A stretch of 12,352 bases of DNA from Vulcanimicrobiota bacterium (GTDB taxonomy: Bacteria > Vulcanimicrobiota > Vulcanimicrobiia > Vulcanimicrobiales > Vulcanimicrobiaceae). A program made the translations under genes and the position numbers. The stretch is taken from NCBI GenBank assembly GCA_019233165.1, contig JAFAMS010000343.1:1-12352 (forward strand), read 5' to 3'. Shown here piece by piece: positions 1-8,206 of this stretch. The first letter of the stretch is position 1. Each line of letters starts with the position of its first letter. Under the pieces are notes generated by a model that saw only the letters and a list, made by a program, of their open reading frames with translations, was not told the origin of the DNA and did not search any database.

Positions 1-1699
1 GCGCCTCCTTGTAGAAGCTGAGTTGGTCCTTGTCCTCGGGCTCGTAGAGCTGTCCGAGCGGCGAATAGATCGCGACCTGCCGGAAGAGCGGCTCCATCCC
101 GAAGGTTCTTGCTTCGTCGGCGACGATCGGAACGACCGCGTCTTTGATCGGGCTGCGCAAGAGTTGCTGCAGCATCTGCACGAACGCCATCGTCGTCGAC
201 TGCTCGCGGCCGTCGGTCCCCGCGAGCGCGCGCTGGAAGGTGAGCAGGTTGGGGACGCTCGTCTTCGGCGCGCTCGAACTGCGCGCCGGGACGTATCCGC
301 CGAGCAACCGCCTGCGCGCGTGCAGATACGCGATCTCCGGAGAATCGTCCGGCGGACGGACGAAGCGCAGCGCGCGCACGTCCTCGTCGGAGAGCGTGAG
401 CCGGAACGTTTCCCGGAACGCAAAGAGCGCTTCGTCGCGCAGCTTCTTCTGCTGGTGCGCCGTCATCTTGCCCTGACCCCACGCGCCCATCCCGAAGCCT
501 TTCTTCGTCTGTGCGAGGATCACGGTCGGCTTCCCGGCCGTGCGGATCGCGGCGTCGTACGCAGCGTTGATCTTCACCGGGTCGTGTCCGCCGCGCCGCA
601 GCTCGTCGATCTGACTGTCGGTGAGGTTCTGCACGAGCGCGCGGAGGGCGGGATCCTTGTCGAAGAAATGCTCGCGATTGTACCGTCCGTCGGTCGCCGC
701 GTAGGTCTGCAACATCCCGTCGACCGTCTCCGCGAGCCGCCGCGCGATCGCGCCGTCGTGGTCGCGGGCGAAGAGCGGATCCCAATTCGAACCCCACAGC
801 ACTTTGATCACGTTCCAGCCGGCGCCCGAGAAAAGCCCTTCGAGCTCTTGCACGATCGAGCTATTGCTGCGCACGGGGCCGTCGAGCCGCTGCAGGTTAC
901 AATTGATGACGAAGATCAGGTTGTCGAGCTTGTCGCGAACGGCGAGCGAAAGGCCGGCGAGCGATTCCGGTTCGTCCATCTCGCCGTCGCCGATGAACGC
1001 CCAGACCTTCCGCCCGGCGGTTTGCGCCAGGCCGCGATGTTCGAGGTAACGCATGAACCGCGCTTGATAGACGGCAGCGAGCGGGCCCAACCCCATCGAC
1101 CCGGTCGGAAATTGCCAGAACTCCGGCATCAGCGTCGGATGGCAGTACGAGGAGAGCCCGTTCCCGCCGGTCTCGCGCCGGTAGTTCGAGAGCTGCGCTT
1201 CGGTTAGCCGCCCCTCCAGAAACGCGCGCGCGTACACGCCGGGTGCGGCGTGCGGCTGAAAATAGATCGCATCGCCGTTTTGCCCCGCGCGAAAATAGTG
1301 GTTGAACCCGACTTCGAAAAGCTCGGCGACGGAGGCGTAGGTCGCAATGTGGCCGCCGAGCTCGGCGTGCTCGCGATTCGCCCGAACGACGAGCGCCAGC
1401 GCGTTCCACCGCACGAGCGCCGTGATTCGCGCTTCGAGCTCGAGATCGCCCGGGTAGCGCGGCTCGGCCTCGACCGGGATCGTGTTGACGTACGCCGTCC
1501 GCACCGAGGAGGTGCTGTGTACGCCCCGCTTGCGCGCGTGTTCGAGTGCCGTCTCGAGCAGAAATGCGGCGCGCTGCGGCCCCGCCGTCGCGATGACCGA
1601 ATCGATAGCCTCGAGCCACTCGCGGGTCTCGGCAACGTCGATGTCGGCCGGAGGAAGTGCGTGTGCGGCGGGGTCTAGGAGACGCGACGCCGGGTCCAT
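1..1699 (-). CDS. aceE: Pyruvate dehydrogenase E1 component, homodimeric type (5' part; runs off the left edge)
   Basis: E1 of the pyruvate dehydrogenase complex decarboxylates pyruvate with thiamine diphosphate (TPP) and passes the acetyl group to the lipoyl domain of E2, feeding acetyl-CoA synthesis in the cytosol. The visible 566 residues cover the N-terminal TPP-binding part and the start of the second domain of a family usually near 890 residues. Recognisable blocks are TAYVNTIPVE (69-78), RYPGDLE (81-87), GGHIATYAS (115-123), the TPP/Mg motif GDGEMDEPES (237-246) and INCNLQRLDGPVR (265-277). H150, D238 and N268 lie where the E. coli enzyme has its cofactor residues. The ATG at 1699 lies inside the end of leuD (25-base overlap) and has only a weak ribosome site, which suggests coupled translation as the last visible gene of the leu operon. 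MdeB-like 2-oxobutyrate dehydrogenases share this fold, so substrate is inferred. Confidence 0.93.
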   Translation of the reverse strand, partial: MDPASRLLDPAAHALPPADIDVAETREWLEAIDSVIATAGPQRAAFLLETALEHARKRGVHSTSSVRTAYVNTIPVEAEPRYPGDLELEARITALVRWNALALVVRANREHAELGGHIATYASVAELFEVGFNHYFRAGQNGDAIYFQPHAAPGVYARAFLEGRLTEAQLSNYRRETGGNGLSSYCHPTLMPEFWQFPTGSMGLGPLAAVYQARFMRYLEHRGLAQTAGRKVWAFIGDGEMDEPESLAGLSLAVRDKLDNLIFVINCNLQRLDGPVRSNSSIVQELEGLFSGAGWNVIKVLWGSNWDPLFARDHDGAIARRLAETVDGMLQTYAATDGRYNREHFFDKDPALRALVQNLTDSQIDELRRGGHDPVKINAAYDAAIRTAGKPTVILAQTKKGFGMGAWGQGKMTAHQQKKLRDEALFAFRETFRLTLSDEDVRALRFVRPPDDSPEIAYLHARRRLLGGYVPARSSSAPKTSVPNLLTFQRALAGTDGREQSTTMAFVQMLQQLLRSPIKDAVVPIVADEARTFGMEPLFRQVAIYSPLGQLYEPEDKDQLSFYKEA

Positions 1700-2208
1700 G
1701 CGCGTACCGTATCCACTTTCGACGCAAGATACTCCATGAAGCCGCCGCGCAGCAAGAACTCTTTCTTCAGCGGATCGAGCTCGAAGCGCGCGATCTCGCA
1801 CCCCTCCGCTCGGATCGTCTCGTTCGCAACGTCGATCGAAAGACGCTCCGCAGCCAGACACGCTGCGTGCGCCTGCGGGTCGCGGACGATGACCGGGACG
1901 AGCCCGTTGTTGTACGCGTTCTCGTGGAAGATCCGTGCTAAGCTCGGCGCAACGATCGCCTTGAAGCCGTAATCGACAAGCGCCCACACCGCGTGCTCGC
2001 GCGAGCTCCCGCAGCCGAAGTTGTCGCCGACGACGATGATCCTCGCGCCCGGCTTGCTCGCCAGCAGCTCGCGGCCGCCGGGCATCCCTTCGAAGAGCTT
2101 CTCGCCGAAGCCCTCGCGCGAGATCAGCGAGAGATACTTGCCGGGGAAGACCTGGTCGGTGTCGACGTTCGCGCGCGGGAGCGCGAGGACGCGGCTCTCG
2201 ACGATCAT
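1675..2208 (-). CDS. leuD: 3-isopropylmalate dehydratase small subunit
   Basis: LeuD is the swivel-domain subunit that joins LeuC to isomerise 2-isopropylmalate to 3-isopropylmalate in leucine synthesis. The 177 residues match the compact LeuD class. Visible signatures are RANVDTDQVFPGKYL (12-26), the substrate-binding loop GDNFGCGSSREHAVWAL (61-77), and IFHENAYNNGLVPV (93-106). The reading frame stays open upstream of 2208, but the ATG there is the right start: it forms an ATGA overlap with the leuC stop and gives the expected N-terminus (MIVESRVLALPRANVDTD). The last 25 bases overlap aceE in another frame. The reaction needs LeuC, encoded immediately upstream. Confidence 0.95.
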   Translation of the reverse strand: MIVESRVLALPRANVDTDQVFPGKYLSLISREGFGEKLFEGMPGGRELLASKPGARIIVVGDNFGCGSSREHAVWALVDYGFKAIVAPSLARIFHENAYNNGLVPVIVRDPQAHAACLAAERLSIDVANETIRAEGCEIARFELDPLKKEFLLRGGFMEYLASKVDTVRAWTRRRVS

Positions 2209-3578
2209 CGGTTCGCCGCCGCCGTTTCGGCCTGCACCGCAGGCAGCTCGTCGGGGGTCGCTATCCTGCCGAGGACGGCGCTGGCCGCGACGACGACCGG
2301 GGTCGCGAGGTGGACGCGGCCGCCCGCCCCCATCCGCCCGGGGAAATTCCGATTCGTGCTCGAGATGATCCGCATTCCGGGCGCGACGACGCCCATCGAA
2401 AGCCCGAGGCACGGCCCGCACGACGAGTGCGTCCACAGCGCGCCTGCATCTTGGAAGACGTCGTGCAATCCCTCGCGCTCCGCTTGCCTTTTGACCGCTT
2501 GCGAACCGGGCGTGATCACGGTCGGGATCATTACCCGCCGCCCTCGCAGCACGTCGGCCGCGGCGCGCAGATCGGAGATCCTCGCGTTCGTGCACGATCC
2601 GATGAACGCTTGATCGAGCGCGAGCGAACGGATCGGCGTCCCCGCGACGAGCCCCATGTACTCGAGGCTCTGCGCGTCGGCATCGGCGGGAACGGCGCCG
2701 TCGATCGAAACCGATTCGCCCGGATTCGTCCCCCACGTGACGACGGTGCGAATCTTTGCGGCGTCGATCTCGACGACGCCCTCGTAGTTTGCATCGGGAT
2801 CGGCTTTGAGGCCGCGCCAGGCCGCCGCCTTGCGTTCGAATTCCTCACCTTTCGGCTGCGCTTCGCGGCCGCGCAGATACTCGATCGTCGTCTCGTCGGG
2901 CTCGCACATCCCGGTCGTCGCGCCGGCCTCGATCGCCATGTTGCAGAGCGTCATCCGCTCTTCCATCGAGAGCGCTTCGATCGCCGAGCCGTGATACTCG
3001 ATGATGCAGCCCGTCGCGCCCTTGAAGCCGAGCGTTGCGATGACGGTGAGCGCGAGATCCTTCGCGGTCGCTCCGTTCCCGAGCCGGCCGCTCACGTTCA
3101 CCCGCAAAACCTTCGGCTTCTGCATGATGATCGCGCCGGCGAGCATCACGCCTCCTTGCGCGGTCGACCCGATTCCGAGGGCGAACGCGCCAAAGGCGCC
3201 GTGCGTGCAAGTGTGCGAGTCGCCGCAGACGAGCGTAATTCCCGGCTCGACGTAGCCGCGTTCCGGCGTGACGACGTGACAGATTCCGTTCGCCCCGACG
3301 TCGTACATCACGACGCCGTGACGCTTCGCCCAGCTGCGCAGCGCCTGGGCTTGAACCGCCGTTTCGGTGTCCTTTGCCGGCGAGACGTGATCGTTGATCG
3401 CGACGATTCGCGACGCATCGAAGAGCCGGTCGGCGAATTTCTCCGCGATCTCCGCAGCCGGCTGCGGGGTCGTGATCTCGATCGCGATCAGGCGATCGAC
3501 GAAGACGAGCGCGTTCCCGCCGGGAAGCTCCTCGACGACGTGCGCGTCCCAGACTTTGTCGAACAGCGACTGCGGCAT
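2205..3578 (-). CDS. leuC: 3-isopropylmalate dehydratase large subunit
   Basis: LeuC is the aconitase-family subunit carrying the 4Fe-4S cluster for the isopropylmalate isomerase step of leucine synthesis. The 457 residues are full length. The three cluster cysteines are visible as C329 (FIGSCTNARISDLRAA) and C387/C390 (HSSCGPCLG). Other family blocks are DKVWDAHVV (7-15), VCGDSHTCTHGAFGAFALGIG (117-137) and SSTNRNFPGRMG (406-417). The beginning reads DRLIAIEITTPQ, where many proteobacterial LeuC proteins have DRHLIHEVTSPQ, so this is a divergent but intact member. The stop codon overlaps the leuD start (ATGA), and the gene follows ilvC after only 2 bases, so it lies inside one operon. Homoaconitase is a related alternative, made unlikely by leuA and leuD next door. 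Confidence 0.96.
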   Translation of the reverse strand: MPQSLFDKVWDAHVVEELPGGNALVFVDRLIAIEITTPQPAAEIAEKFADRLFDASRIVAINDHVSPAKDTETAVQAQALRSWAKRHGVVMYDVGANGICHVVTPERGYVEPGITLVCGDSHTCTHGAFGAFALGIGSTAQGGVMLAGAIIMQKPKVLRVNVSGRLGNGATAKDLALTVIATLGFKGATGCIIEYHGSAIEALSMEERMTLCNMAIEAGATTGMCEPDETTIEYLRGREAQPKGEEFERKAAAWRGLKADPDANYEGVVEIDAAKIRTVVTWGTNPGESVSIDGAVPADADAQSLEYMGLVAGTPIRSLALDQAFIGSCTNARISDLRAAADVLRGRRVMIPTVITPGSQAVKRQAEREGLHDVFQDAGALWTHSSCGPCLGLSMGVVAPGMRIISSTNRNFPGRMGAGGRVHLATPVVVAASAVLGRIATPDELPAVQAETAAANR

Positions 3579-3580
3579 GG

Positions 3581-4591
3581 CTAGGCGGTGGCTGTTTCTT
3601 TCTCTTTCGGCATCCAGGGCATCATCGCGCGCAGCTTCTTGCCGACTCCTTCGATCGGGTGAGCTTGGCCCTTCTTACGGAATTCGGCGAAGCGGCGCTT
3701 CCCGCCGGCGTGCTCGGCGACCCATTCCTCCGCGAACTTCCCGCTGCGGATGTCTGCGAGCATCGCGCGCATTACGTTGCGGGTCTCGTCGGTGATGACC
3801 CGCGGTCCGCGCGTGTAGTCGCCGTACTTGGCGGTGTTGCTGACGCCTTCGCGCATCCCCTCGATCCCGCGCTCGTAGATGAGATCGACGATCAGCTTGA
3901 GCTCGTGCAGGCACTCGAAGTACGCCATCTCGGGCGCGTACCCAGCTTCGGTGAGCGTCTCGTACGCCGCGGTGATCAGCGCCGTGACGCCGCCGCAGAG
4001 CACCGACTGCTCGCCGAAGAGATCGGTCTCCGTTTCTTCGGCGAACGACGTCTCGAGGATCCCCGCCCTCCCGGCGCCGATCGCGACCGCGTAGGCGAGC
4101 GCGACCGCTCGCGTGTTGCCCGAAGGATCTTGCTGGATCGCGATCAGCGACGGAACGCCGCGGCCGGCTTCGTATTCCGAGCGAACCAAACGTCCCGGAG
4201 CCTTGGGCGCGACCATGAAGATGTTGACGCTCTCTTTGGGGACGATCGTACCGAAGCGGATCGCGAAGCCGTGCGAGAAGCCGAGGTACGCGCCGTCCTT
4301 GAGATTCGGCGCGATATCGCGCAGGTACGTCGCGGGCTGTTCCTCATCGGGGATGAGGATCATCACGACGTCGGCACTCTTGACCGCCTCGGCAATCGGC
4401 CTCACCGCGATCCCGTCCGCCTTGACCTTCTCCCACGAGGACGAGCCCTCGCGCAATCCGACGGCGACTTCGAGTCCCGAGTCCGCCAGACACCGCGCTT
4501 GAGCGCTCCCCTGGCTGCCGTAACCGATGACCGCGATCCGCTTCTTCGCAAGCGCGCTGCGGTCGGCGTCTTTATCGTAAAAAGCTTGCAT
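3581..4591 (-). CDS. ilvC: Ketol-acid reductoisomerase, class I
   Basis: IlvC converts acetolactate (or acetohydroxybutyrate) by alkyl migration and NAD(P)H reduction to the dihydroxy acid, the second common step of Val, Leu and Ile synthesis. At 336 residues it is the short class I form. The N-terminal Rossmann domain shows [11 protein letters not shown] (22-32) and a cofactor loop GLREGSSSW (45-53); the Arg and two Ser in that loop are the pattern usually linked to NADPH preference. The C-terminal knotted domain carries the likely Mg ligands and catalytic residues H107, K130, D190, E194, E226, E230 and S251, with [15 protein letters not shown] at 251-265. An AAGGGG ribosome site lies 4 bases before the ATG. 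It sits 19 bases after leuA and 2 bases before leuC. No ilvB, ilvN or ilvD is visible here. Confidence 0.97.
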
Positions 4592-4610: not shown

Positions 4611-5867
4611 TCAGGTGTAGCTCGTCATGATCGCGTTGCTCGCGAACTCGCGGCCGGCGTGGTGATCGCCGGAGGACGGTACTTCCTCCAAGCGCCCCGG
4701 CGGCCGGACCAGCGACGCGCCCGTCGCCTCTTGCGCGAGGCGGACCAATTCGGCGTCGCTGACCGTTCTCCGCGTCTGCGCGAACGCCGCGAACGCGTCG
4801 AGGAACTTCTTCTCGGCCTTGCGGTCGAAGACGAAACCGATGTCGCGCGCGTGCGCGAGGACCGCGTGGCGGCCGGAGTTGCGCGAGAGCGAGAATTTCG
4901 TCTGGCGAACCCCGACCGATTTGGGGTCGATGATCTCGTACGTCCCTTTGTGCTTGAGCATCCCGTCTTGATGGATTCCCGATTCGTGCATGAACGCGTG
5001 CGCGCCGACGATCGCCTTGTTCTTCTGGACCGGCATGCGGGTCGCGCGTGCGACCTGTTGGGAGATCGCTTGCAGTTTGGTCGCGTCGAACCGTGTCTCG
5101 ACGTGATGGACGTCCTTGCGGACGTGCAGGCCGACGACGACTTCTTCGAGCGAGCAGTTTCCGGCGCGTTCGCCGATCCCGTTGATCGTGCACTCGACCT
5201 GGCGCGCGCCCGCGCCGATCGCCGCTAGCGCGTTTGCGACCGCAAGACCGAGATCGTCGTGCGTGTGGACGCTGAAGACGACGTTCTCGGCGCCGTCGAC
5301 CCGCTCGCGCAGGTAGGCGATCAGCTCGGCGTATTCGCCGGGCGTCGTGTAGCCGACGGTGTCGGGGACGTTCAGCGTCGTCGCGCCGGCATTCGTCGCC
5401 GCGCTGAAGACTTTCACCAGAAAATCCCAGTCCGAGCGCGTCGCGTCCTCGGCCGAGAACTCGACGTCCGAGCAGTACTTCTTCGCGCGGCGCACGGCAT
5501 CCGCGGTCGCGACGACCGCAGCCTCCGGCGTCATGCGGAGCTTGTGCTCGAGATGCAGCATCGAGGTCGCCAGGAACACGTGGATCCTCGGCGCCTCGGC
5601 CTCCTTGAGAGCCTCCCAGGCCGCGTCGATGTCGGACGCGGTCGTCCGCGCGAGCGCGGCGACCGAGCTTCCTCTGACGTGCCGGGCGATCTCGGCGACG
5701 CTGTGGACGACGATCGGCGAGGCGGCGGGGAAGCCGGCCTCGATTACGTCGACCCGCGCCTCGGCGAGCATCTGCGCGATCTTCAGCCGAGCTGCGGGAG
5801 ACATCGTCGCTCCCGGCGATTGCTCTCCGTCGCGCAAGGTCGTGTCGAATACGATGACGCGGTCCAT
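4611..5867 (-). CDS. leuA: 2-isopropylmalate synthase, short form without the usual regulatory domain
   Basis: LeuA condenses acetyl-CoA with 2-oxoisovalerate, the committed step of leucine synthesis. The 418 residues show the TIM-barrel start [16 protein letters not shown] (7-22, R12 and D13), [19 protein letters not shown] (225-243), metal ligands H201 and H203 in [11 protein letters not shown], and the LeuA-type [12 protein letters not shown] (294-305). The subdomain after the barrel ends near residue 382, followed by about 35 weakly structured residues. The C-terminal leucine-binding domain of about 110 residues found in E. coli-type LeuA (523 residues) is absent. An upstream in-frame ATG at 5930 would place the attenuator hairpin inside the coding region, so the ATG at 5867 is preferred; it has AGGAG 11 bases upstream. 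Homocitrate or citramalate synthase are related alternatives, but leuCD in the same operon favours LeuA. Confidence 0.93.
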
Positions 5868-5890
5868 CTCGAAAAAAGCTCCTATAAACG

Positions 5891-5922
5891 AAAAGCCCCT
5901 CGCCGTTTCGCGAGGGGCCTTT
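5891..5922 (-). terminator. Intrinsic terminator in the leu leader (attenuator)
   Basis: On the minus strand a perfect 9-bp GC-rich stem (GCCCCTCGC / GCGAGGGGC, 5918-5910 with 5903-5895) has a six-base GAAACG loop. It extends by one G-U and three A-U pairs into the U-run TTTTCGTTT. The hairpin begins 21 bases after the stop of the leader ORF and ends 23 bases before the leuA ATG, so it can cut transcription before the operon. This placement between a branched-chain-rich leader peptide and leuA is that of a transcription attenuator. I could not find a convincing antiterminator pairing by eye; the best candidates are short (GCCT/AGGC and GGCCT/AGGCC). Confidence 0.85.
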
Positions 5923-5943
5923 GAAGGCAAACCTGCTTAGCGG

Positions 5944-6000
5944 CTACGTCAGGGACGAACCGATAAGGAGGAGGCTGAGGCCGATAACTCGGTTGCTCAT
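5944..6000 (-). CDS. Leader peptide of the leu operon, rich in branched-chain residues
   Basis: An 18-codon ORF reads MSNRVIGLSLLLIGSSLT and then TAG. Eight of 18 residues are branched-chain (five Leu, two Ile, one Val), with a Leu-Leu-Leu-Ile run at residues 10-13 (codons CTC CTC CTT ATC). It lies just downstream of a promoter-like TTGACA/TAAGGT pair and just upstream of a strong terminator and leuA. In known leu and ilv attenuators a ribosome stalling at such codons, when the charged tRNAs are scarce, prevents terminator formation. The peptide itself probably has no other role. The AAGGT that could act as ribosome site overlaps the likely -10 box, so this ORF may be translated from a leaderless mRNA. 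It is too short to be called by size-filtered gene finders. Confidence 0.82.
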   Translation of the reverse strand: MSNRVIGLSLLLIGSSLT

Positions 6001-6009
6001 GTACAGCCG

Positions 6010-6039
6010 ACCTTAACCCAAGGGCGAGCGCGGTGTCAA
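6010..6039 (-). promoter_or_regulatory. Probable promoter of the leu operon
   Basis: On the minus strand a perfect -35 hexamer TTGACA (6039-6034) is followed after 18 bases by TAAGGT (6015-6010), which matches TATAAT at four positions and fits the TANNNT form common in high-GC bacteria. It lies between the rel stop (6053) and the leader ATG (6000). Only 9 bases separate the -10 box from that ATG, so transcription should begin at or within about 3 bases of it. There is no convincing rel terminator before it, so read-through from rel is possible and would also meet the attenuator. Confidence 0.65.
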
Positions 6040-6052
6040 CCGGGGCCCGGGC

Positions 6053-8206
6053 CTACCCGCTGGCCCGCTCGCGCTTCGTGACCCGGTAGACGGTCCGAAC
6101 CCCTTTGACCCCTTCGAGCTTGCGCAGCAGCTTGTGGAGGTGGTCCAAGTTCTCGATCTGGAGGGTCAGGGAGGTCACCGCGATCTCTTTCTTCACGCGG
6201 GCGGTGACCGAAGATGCCGAGGTCTTGAGCTCGGCGCAGACGGCCATGATGTCCTGAAGGAGCCCCGCCCGGTCGACCGCCTCCACCTCGACGTCGACCG
6301 CGTGCATGGCAGTCGGGTTTTCGCTCCACGCGGCCTGCAAGATCCGCTCGGGCTGAGCGTTCATATAGGCGACGTTCGGACAATCGGCTCGATGGACCGA
6401 GACGCCCTTGCCGATCGTGACGAACCCGATGATCGGGTCGCCGGGAACCGGGCTGCAGCATTTCGAGACGCGGACCAGGACGTCGTCGACCCCGGCGATT
6501 TGAATCCCCGAGGAGTTGCGGGGAACGCGGCGCTGAACCGGCCGCGGGACCGTTGTGATGTCGACGATGTTGGTCGCCTTGAGCTCCTCTTTGAGCCGCT
6601 GGGCGACCGAGACCGCCGAGGCGTCGCCGAATCCGATCGCGGCGTAAAGATCCGCCGGCGTCGCATAGTTCATCTTGTGCGCGATCCGCTCGAGCGCGGC
6701 TCCCCGCGCCGCATCGGGACGCACGTGCTGGCGAACGAGCTCCGCTTCGAGCGACTCCTGCCCCGCCAGAACGTTCTCTTCCTTGCGCTCTTTGCGGAAC
6801 CACTGCTTGATCTTGTGCTTCGCGCTCGAGGTGCGGACGATCGTGAGCCAGTCGAGCGACGGCCGCGCCGCCTTTTGCGTGAGCACCTCGCAGATGTCGC
6901 CGTTGCGCAGCTGGTAGTCGAGCGGGACGATCTTCCCGTTCACCTTGGCGCCGATGCACCGGTTCCCGACGTCGGTGTGGACATGATACGCGAAATCGAG
7001 CGGCGTCGCGGACGCCGGCATCGAGAACACGTCGCCTTTGGGCGAGAAGACGAAAACCTGATTCTCGAAGAGATCGAGCTTCAGGTTTTCCATGAACACG
7101 CGCGAGTCGCGAGCGTCGTTTTGCCATTCGAGGAGCGAGCGAAGCCAAGCGAGCTTGTTCTCGAACGGGTCGTGCTTGCCGCCTTCCTTATACCGCCAAT
7201 GCGCCGCGATCCCGTATTCCGCGGTGCGATGCATCTCCCACGTGCGAATCTGCACTTCGAGCGGATCGCCGCCCGGCCCGACGACGGTCGTGTGCAGCGA
7301 CTGATACATGTTCGGCTTGGGCATCGCGATGTAGTCTTTGAAGCGTCCGGGTATCGGCTTCCAAAGCGCGTGCACCTCGCCGAGCGCGCCGTAGCAGTCC
7401 TTGACCGAGTCGACGATGACGCGTACCGCCGTCAAATCGAAGATCGTCGAGAAGTCGCGGCCGCGCTTCAACTTGGTGTAGATCGAATAGAAGTGCTTCG
7501 GCCGGCCGGTCGTCTCGTTCTTGATCCCGACGCGCTCGAAACTCTCGCGGAGAACGTCCACGACGTCGGCGACCGCGACTTGGCGATCGTCGCGCTTGCG
7601 CGCGACTCGCTCGGCGATGTCGCGGTACGACTCCGCATCGAGGTACCGCAAACACAGATCTTCGAGCTCCGAGCGAATCTTCCAGATTCCCAGGCGATGG
7701 GCGATCGGCGCGTAGATCTCGAGCGTTTCCCGCGCGATCGCCGTTTGCTTGGCCTCCGGCAAGCTTGAAAGCGTCCGCATGTTGTGCAGGCGGTCGGCCA
7801 GCTTGATGATGATGACCCGGATGTCCTTAGCCATCGCCAGGAACATCTTGCGCAGGTTCTCGACCTGGGCGTCTTCCTTCGATTGATACGGAATGCGCGT
7901 CAGCTTGGTGACGCCGTCAACCAGGGTCGCGATCTCGGTTCCGAACGCGGTGCCGACCTCTTCGCTCGTGACGACCGTGTCCTCGACGACGTCGTGCAAG
8001 AGCGCGGCAGCGATCGTCGCCCGGTCCATCTCGAGCTCCGCTAGGATCTCGGCAACCGCAAGCGGGTGCTCGATGTACGCCTCGCCCGAAGCCCGCTTCT
8101 GATCGCCGTGTGCCTGGTCGGCGAGATCGTAGGCGCGTCGAAGCCACCCGCCATCGAGCGCGGGGTCGTACGCCTGAATCTTGGTGACGAGCGCGTCAAT
8201 CGACAT
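6053..8206 (-). CDS. rel: Bifunctional (p)ppGpp synthetase/hydrolase (RelA/SpoT family)
   Basis: This cytosolic enzyme makes and degrades the alarmone (p)ppGpp in response to amino-acid starvation sensed on the ribosome. The 717 residues have the complete long RSH layout. The HD hydrolase has H47, H71-D72, E75-D76 and D138 in KLADRLHNMRTL. The synthetase has YSIYTKLKR (240-248), D257, RFKDYIAMPKPNMYQSLHTT (288-307) and E317 in EVQIRT. The TGS domain lies at about 383-443. A zinc-finger-like stretch has C583-C584, H605 and C609, and the ACT domain is at about 636-712. Hydrolase and synthetase residues are both intact, so it should be bifunctional. The ATG at 8206 gives the family-standard N-terminus but has no clear ribosome site. 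It follows apt by 73 bases, the common apt-rel order. Confidence 0.97.
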   Translation of the reverse strand: MSIDALVTKIQAYDPALDGGWLRRAYDLADQAHGDQKRASGEAYIEHPLAVAEILAELEMDRATIAAALLHDVVEDTVVTSEEVGTAFGTEIATLVDGVTKLTRIPYQSKEDAQVENLRKMFLAMAKDIRVIIIKLADRLHNMRTLSSLPEAKQTAIARETLEIYAPIAHRLGIWKIRSELEDLCLRYLDAESYRDIAERVARKRDDRQVAVADVVDVLRESFERVGIKNETTGRPKHFYSIYTKLKRGRDFSTIFDLTAVRVIVDSVKDCYGALGEVHALWKPIPGRFKDYIAMPKPNMYQSLHTTVVGPGGDPLEVQIRTWEMHRTAEYGIAAHWRYKEGGKHDPFENKLAWLRSLLEWQNDARDSRVFMENLKLDLFENQVFVFSPKGDVFSMPASATPLDFAYHVHTDVGNRCIGAKVNGKIVPLDYQLRNGDICEVLTQKAARPSLDWLTIVRTSSAKHKIKQWFRKERKEENVLAGQESLEAELVRQHVRPDAARGAALERIAHKMNYATPADLYAAIGFGDASAVSVAQRLKEELKATNIVDITTVPRPVQRRVPRNSSGIQIAGVDDVLVRVSKCCSPVPGDPIIGFVTIGKGVSVHRADCPNVAYMNAQPERILQAAWSENPTAMHAVDVEVEAVDRAGLLQDIMAVCAELKTSASSVTARVKKEIAVTSLTLQIENLDHLHKLLRKLEGVKGVRTVYRVTKRERASG

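Follow-up and report, generated by a model that had tools for sequence, protein, structure and literature searches.

It is proposed, with good confidence, that the leader upstream of leuA controls the leuA-ilvC-leuC-leuD operon by ribosome-mediated transcription attenuation, with a bias towards leucine; the regulation itself is predicted from sequence. The DNA analysed here, a stretch of 12,352 nt referred to as the window, belongs to a member of Candidatus Eremiobacteraeota/Vulcanimicrobiota whose assembly comprises 541 contigs at 80% completeness; the closest named LeuA matches come from a Candidatus Eremiobacteraeota bacterium (83%) and a Candidatus Baltobacteraceae bacterium (82%), and matches named Vulcanimicrobiaceae stand at about 64% and below. 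The site holds a leader ORF, promoter-like boxes, a hairpin designated 1:2 and a terminator-like hairpin (Table 1), and the arrangement recurs in relatives. The branched-chain attenuator of the original prediction is the best explanation of the site, and the relatives support it.

Table 1. Features of the leuA leader region and its neighbours; positions are those of the window.
Feature	Position	Strand	Basis or remark
RelA/SpoT-family gene, upstream	6053..8206	minus	TIGR00691, 802.8 bits, over cut-off
-35-like box TTGACA	6034..6039	minus	pattern match; absent from sigma-70 scan output
-10-like box TAAGGT	6010..6015	minus	pattern match; 9 nt before leader ATG; same in G001
Leader ORF MSNRVIGLSLLLIGSSLT	5944..6000	minus	ATG at 6000, TAG ending 5944; 18 codons
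Presumed control codons 8-13 (CUC AGC CUC CUC CUU AUC)	5962..5979	minus	read from sequence
1:2 hairpin, Leu codons across stop codon	5932..5971	minus	folding compared with shuffles
Candidate 2:3 antiterminator, weak	5910..5936	minus	about -8 kcal/mol
Terminator-like hairpin, 13 bp, then CGUUU	5891..5922	minus	folding
AGGAG, probable leuA ribosome-binding site	5879..5883	minus	read from sequence; 11 nt before leuA ATG
leuA, 2-isopropylmalate synthase, 418 aa	4611..5867	minus	NF002086 over cut-off; ATG at 5867; Pfam domains
ilvC, ketol-acid reductoisomerase	3581..4591	minus	TIGR00465 over cut-off
leuC, 3-isopropylmalate dehydratase large subunit	2205..3578	minus	NF001614 over cut-off; best NF009116, NF004016 just below
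leuD, small subunit	1675..2205 (start approximate)	minus	translation, by eye

The RelA/SpoT-family gene ends 13 nt before the -35-like box, leaving 185 nt between its end and leuA. LeuA homologues of 418 aa are consistent with the assigned leuA start, and the C-terminal regulatory domain is not among the Pfam domains listed for the product. Rereading of the leader ORF bore out the description first given of it, eight branched-chain residues in 18 with a Leu-Leu-Leu-Ile run, and placed all eight (V5, I6, L8, L10, L11, L12, I13 and L17); a cluster of codons for the product of the operon is present, with I/L/V at codons 8 and 10-13. The hairpin described 21 bases past the leader and before leuA was likewise recovered, its 13 pairs (one of them G-U) joining 5922-5910 to 5903-5891 around the loop 5909-5904 at -24.7 kcal/mol. 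The hairpin lies between leader ORF and leuA and its tail is T-rich, as in an intrinsic terminator; the U-run is broken and lies partly within the stem (GGGGCUUUU, then CGUUUAUA). A simple terminator scan of the window did not return this hairpin, because its rule needs five T in the eight bases directly after the fully extended stem. The sequence 5865-6052 was shuffled 5000 times with its dinucleotides preserved. An ORF of 10-35 codons that contained a run of three and at least 40% I/L/V turned up in 59 shuffles and a comparable terminator in nine, and the I/L/V ORF and the terminator in order occurred in none; among 518 stretches of 188 nt from both strands of the window, the only two that passed both cover the leuA site. 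The ORF and terminator-like hairpin at this site are confirmed as real.

The promoter-like layout, which the original prediction overlooked, consists of TTGACA, 18 nt, TAAGGT, 9 nt and the leader ATG, and TAAGGTCGGCTGTACATGAG is identical between the window and the congener G001. This pair is missing from the output of a sigma-70 scan of the window, whose rule needs four of six matching positions per box, of which TAAGGT has three. With 9 nt between the -10 box and the ATG, transcription starting 6-8 nt downstream of the box would leave at most a few nucleotides of 5' UTR; the start is predicted to lie within about 3 nt of the leader ATG, which probably makes the transcript a leaderless or almost leaderless one. 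TTGAC occurs within 60 nt upstream of all 37 branched-chain leaders collected in this study, and in 17 of the 37 it goes with a strict TANNNT, the gap being 7-11 nt. The pattern TTGACN18-20TANNNTN5-10ATG has eight matches (seven distinct) in the host genome against one in the reversed control, and in six relatives the matches and controls number 22/7, 21/0, 28/7, 27/9, 31/2 and 24/2. Four of the eight matches in the host genome are attenuator-like, standing before leuA, ilvB, an O-acetylhomoserine sulfhydrylase gene and an aliphatic-sulfonate binding-protein gene.

Among 149 genomes of the phylum, 14 encode this type of LeuA at E <= 1e-60, and seven of these carry the leuA leader (the host genome G000, G001, G030 and G037-G040, the hairpin of G040 lying on another contig). 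The congener G001 retains promoter, ORF, 1:2 hairpin and terminator with 88% column identity and a different gene upstream; Leu8, Leu10 and Leu12 are kept and codon 11 has changed from Leu to Val. G001 is the sole congener examined, and it has both the ORF and the hairpin; their joint absence from relatives with the same operon, which had been named as evidence that would count against attenuation, did not occur among the genomes compared. Six genomes have leuA without such a leader and in one more (G098) the region is cut off. In three of the six leuA lies inside another operon, downstream of ilvC (G029, G139) or directly after ilvE (G069), and in the other three a terminator is kept but no leucine leader precedes the gene: G006 has a terminator between ilvE and leuA and no separate leader, and G020 and G099 (L012, L115) keep promoter and terminator with no closed Leu-rich ORF. 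The end of ilvE in G006 (L119, G006:C23, before 4368) is Leu-rich (LSLSGTLLST), and the gene end might act as a leader; the ORF in G020 and G099 has few Leu and no stop ahead of the hairpin, and resembles a shortened ilvB-type leader. Genome contigs were also searched with leuA, and 80 of the loci listed were taken; none of the leuA matches listed bore the name of the host phylum. As a control, an I/L/V leader with a terminator was found in four of the 79 loci whose upstream sequence spans 150 nt or more, all with planctomycete titles. In these planctomycete loci (L040, L045, L048, L056) an ORF with a Leu run (LLLLLLLLL at the longest) is followed by a terminator.

Leaders of the same kind are widespread before ilvB and ilvC. 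With ilvB present at E <= 1e-130 in 34 of the 149 genomes and two of these left out (G019 and G125, contig ends), such a leader precedes ilvB or ilvC in 31 of the 32 assessable genomes, standing before ilvB in 22 and before an ilvC that precedes ilvB in nine; G029 has two leaders. The one assessable genome with no accepted ilvB leader is G139, of another family, where the two short ORFs that an ORF scan gave before ilvB, each 33% or more I/L/V, were rejected as leaders by eye. The leaders of genus g20 contain little I/L/V (5/27 in G020). G037-G040 belong to a genus in which leuA and ilvB run divergently, each behind its own leader; at these loci (L007, L128-L131) two attenuators stand back to back between the operons. 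Across the 37 leaders CUU makes up 45% of Leu codons and AUU 69% of Ile codons, as compared with 8% each in leuA, ilvC, leuC and spoT of the window, comparison genes that come from one genome; the codons of the window leader are mainly the common CUC and AUC. In all seven genomes having both leaders, the share of Leu in L+I+V is higher in the leuA leader than in the ilvB leader (5/8 and 4/10, respectively, in G000), with a Fisher p of 0.11 when one genome is taken for each of the three genera. The two leaders of G030 resemble each other from end to end, and positions of Ile or Val have become Leu or Ala. We read the leuA leaders as retuned toward leucine. The earlier idea that the leader may sense more than leucine is modified by this comparison: the leader looks leucine-biased rather than balanced, and Ile and Val would have a lesser part.

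Alternative pairing was assessed against shuffled sequences. A 1:2 hairpin as stable as the real one, which includes the control codons, arose in 0/500 shuffles for the window and 8/500 for G001. For the 2:3 hairpin, energies as low were obtained in 155/500 shuffles and region-3 pairing as high in 106/500 for the window, the corresponding figures for G001 being 216/500 and 13/500; duplex folding, and folding with a covering ribosome, revealed no strong region-2/region-3 antiterminator beyond chance in the window. Region 2 was taken to run from 36 nt upstream to 14 nt downstream of the last base of the stop codon and region 3 as the 5' arm and loop of the terminator, and their pairing was tested with 300 dinucleotide shuffles in 36 of the 37 leaders (the leuA leader of G040, on a contig piece without terminator, was left out). 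Pairing beats the shuffles (p < 0.05) in 23 of the 36, with a mean z of -2.6; a leader's own partner is better than the mean swapped partner in 31, and 30 have an uninterrupted 2:3 helix of at least 7 bp. There is no gain over chance in the window (z of +0.74), G001 (+0.31) or the leuA leader of G030 (+0.64). Both sides of the helix have changed together between GUUCGG/CCGAAC, found in four genera (G103, G014, G004 and G007), and GAUCGG/CCGAUC, found in G024, G006, G087 and the ilvB leader of G000, the latter version representing three further genera. A three-way switch therefore has good support in the ilvB and ilvC leaders and is no more than plausible in the window leader, whose 1:2 hairpin is strong but whose 2:3 hairpin, unlike that of many relatives, is no better than shuffles. 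The alternative antiterminator pairing for which folding had been suggested is thus clear in many relatives and does not exceed chance in the window itself.

From these features we infer a transcription start site, translation, stalling, a 2:3 step in this species and a response to leucine, which may be combined as follows. RNA polymerase would begin very close to the leader ATG. A ribosome would load on the bare AUG and translate the 18 codons. When leucyl-tRNA is ample, the ribosome would reach the UAG within the 3' arm of 1:2 and cover region 2, and the terminator 3:4 would form. When leucyl-tRNA (or, to a lesser degree, isoleucyl- or valyl-tRNA) is scarce, the ribosome would stall at codons 8-13 and hairpin 1:2 would stay open; region 2 could pair with region 3, and the polymerase would read through into leuA.

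Four other explanations were weighed. The hairpin might be a mere 3' terminator of the RelA/SpoT gene, with a leucine-rich ORF arising by chance, as would suit a gene that ends at 6053 on the same strand with a terminator before leuA; this is improbable, since G001 retains boxes, ORF and hairpin despite the different upstream gene, the joint chance in the shuffles was 0/5000, and similar units stand before ilvB and ilvC. Improbable to the same degree is a two-state device in which the ribosome or the 1:2 hairpin paces the polymerase and affects the terminator without a true 2:3 antiterminator. It would account for a window in which 1:2 is highly significant and 2:3 is not, but region 3 of G001 pairs upstream above chance (13/500) and a strong 2:3 helix exists in most ilvB/ilvC leaders.

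Translational control like that of the actinobacterial LEU element, with Leu codons pairing with the leuA ribosome-binding site, could draw on a CUCCU within the leader ORF that is able to pair with AGGAG, and on the leaderless Leu-rich leader peptides that Actinobacteria have before leuA (PMC1262725, PMC8079986). However, pairing of this type between ORF and leuA upstream region showed no gain over shuffles in any of six leuA leaders (as low in 293, 483, 214, 475, 486 and 266 of 500), and the LEU element is without an obvious terminator whereas the window has one, so that such control appears very unlikely. Membership of the LEU element was rejected on the lack of a Leu-codon/ribosome-binding-site pairing signal in the six leaders. 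Searches with Rfam, including its leader, T-box and riboswitch models, gave no match at gathering cut-offs in the window and 15 related loci, and none up to E = 1 in 5800-6100. Least credible is a small peptide with a function of its own rather than a sensor: the core of the ORF is hydrophobic and a leader peptide acting in trans is known elsewhere (PMC7298713), but between genera it is mainly the branched-chain richness that is kept, and rare Leu and Ile codons are enriched in the leaders. The attenuator of the leuA operon is accordingly the reading retained here.

Leaders before other amino-acid genes were sought in 40 pattern-match regions, chosen by eye so that no count is implied, and by gene searches. 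In the host genome, a leaderless-type leader MSADVRRIMTMASCSHEDRRR with a hairpin precedes an O-acetylhomoserine sulfhydrylase gene (L174, G000:C116:3569-3606), and a second, MTCRPMAMCMAMCCTPRCR, with five Met and five Cys, is followed by a hairpin before the gene for an aliphatic-sulfonate binding protein (L175, G000:C139:1084-1126); the counterparts of both leaders in G001 are alike. Met/Cys-rich leaders thus stand before the O-acetylhomoserine sulfhydrylase gene in G000 (gene identified by family), G001 and G008 (by likeness), and before that for the sulfonate-binding protein in G000 (by family) and G001 (by likeness). MMMCC or CCC runs occur in leaders of sulfite reductase genes (L215 and L216 in G001, L224 in G008), and Met/Cys-rich leaders with terminators are seen before homoserine dehydrogenase in G012 (L247, gene by Pfam) and G030 (L244, by likeness). 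Poly-Thr leaders with hairpins precede thrC in G030 (L243, ten Thr in a row) and G037-G039 (L318, L319, L320). A thrC leader scan of 18 of 30 loci, two of them with less than 50 nt upstream, located a Thr run within 420 nt in one locus (G037) and, in longer stretches, in G037, G038 and G039; there is none before thrC of G001, the longer stretch included. A Pro-rich leader, MLNVYVLPCPPQPHQEMPVR, with a terminator lies before a PF03807-matching gene read as proC (L242, G030:C31:139945-140700); a proline attenuator, if this is one, would be unusual. Leader ORFs with Trp runs (WW to WWWW) precede trpE in 10 of 10 genomes of the sister family f3 having the gene (L266, L276 and L310-L317); the Trp leader of G047, whose sequence overlaps the end of the ORF before it, is not leaderless. 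In a scan of 21 of 30 trpE loci, none of the 18 from the family and order of the host has a Trp run, G037 having an ORF with two separate Trp. We lean, with some reserve, towards a broad network of leader-peptide attenuators in Eremiobacteraeota/Vulcanimicrobiota, many of them leaderless, that would cover branched-chain genes (leuA, ilvB, ilvC), thrC, Met/Cys-related genes (O-acetylhomoserine sulfhydrylase, homoserine dehydrogenase, sulfite reductase, sulfonate uptake), trpE in the sister family and perhaps proline, and in which paralogous leaders would have been retuned from I/L/V (ilvB) to mainly Leu (leuA).

A 2010 survey noted that the demonstrated leader-peptide systems were confined to Proteobacteria and Actinobacteria, to which the survey itself added Firmicutes (PMC2965389). 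A literature search that falls short of most subscription journals found neither a report of leader-peptide attenuation in Eremiobacterota/Vulcanimicrobiota nor one of a wider Thr, Trp, Met/Cys or perhaps Pro leader repertoire in the phylum. What is proposed here is a known mechanism in a new phylum, with a leaderless design that is probable and a wide repertoire that is hinted at. The predicted extension of attenuation to an uncultivated phylum is supported as an extension, but the phylum, Eremiobacteraeota, has had a cultivated member, Vulcanimicrobium alpinus, since 2022 (PMC9758169). Leaderless branched-chain leaders and attenuators are already known from Actinobacteria (PMC8079986, PMC11857589, PMC13236596, PMC1262725), and the near-absence of a 5' UTR, predicted here and shared with Actinobacteria, prompts one to ask if leaderless attenuation is ancient or arose by convergence. 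Where one genome carries both a leuA and an ilvB leader, codon specificity is open to a direct test, and leader peptides allow likely amino-acid responses to be read from the genomes of uncultivated bacteria.

Enterobacterial leu and ilv operon leaders have a normal 5' UTR, control codons for Leu or I/L/V, and hairpins designated 1:2, 2:3 and 3:4. The window is like them in its presumed control codons and in a hairpin scheme of which 2:3 is a weak candidate; it differs in its probably near-absent 5' UTR and has no Rfam match. Closer in layout is the ilvBNC attenuator of Corynebacterium glutamicum, which also has a short branched-chain leader ORF, with transcription there starting one nucleotide from the start codon, and which forms terminator, antiterminator and anti-antiterminator hairpins (PMC11857589); the window differs from it in phylum and gene, and its antiterminator is a weak candidate. 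The ilvB1NC operon of Mycobacterium tuberculosis likewise has a branched-chain uORF and a proposed ribosome-controlled choice between antiterminator and terminator, but it belongs to another phylum, has a 166-nt leader before ilvB1 and is experimentally supported (PMC13236596). The leuA leader of Streptomyces and the actinobacterial LEU element share with the window a Leu-rich leader peptide before leuA, leaderless in them and probably so in the window, and are described as having no typical terminator and as having a conserved pseudoknot or ribosome-binding-site pairing (PMC8079986, PMC1262725); in the window, ribosome-binding-site pairing is no better than shuffles and a terminator-like hairpin is present.
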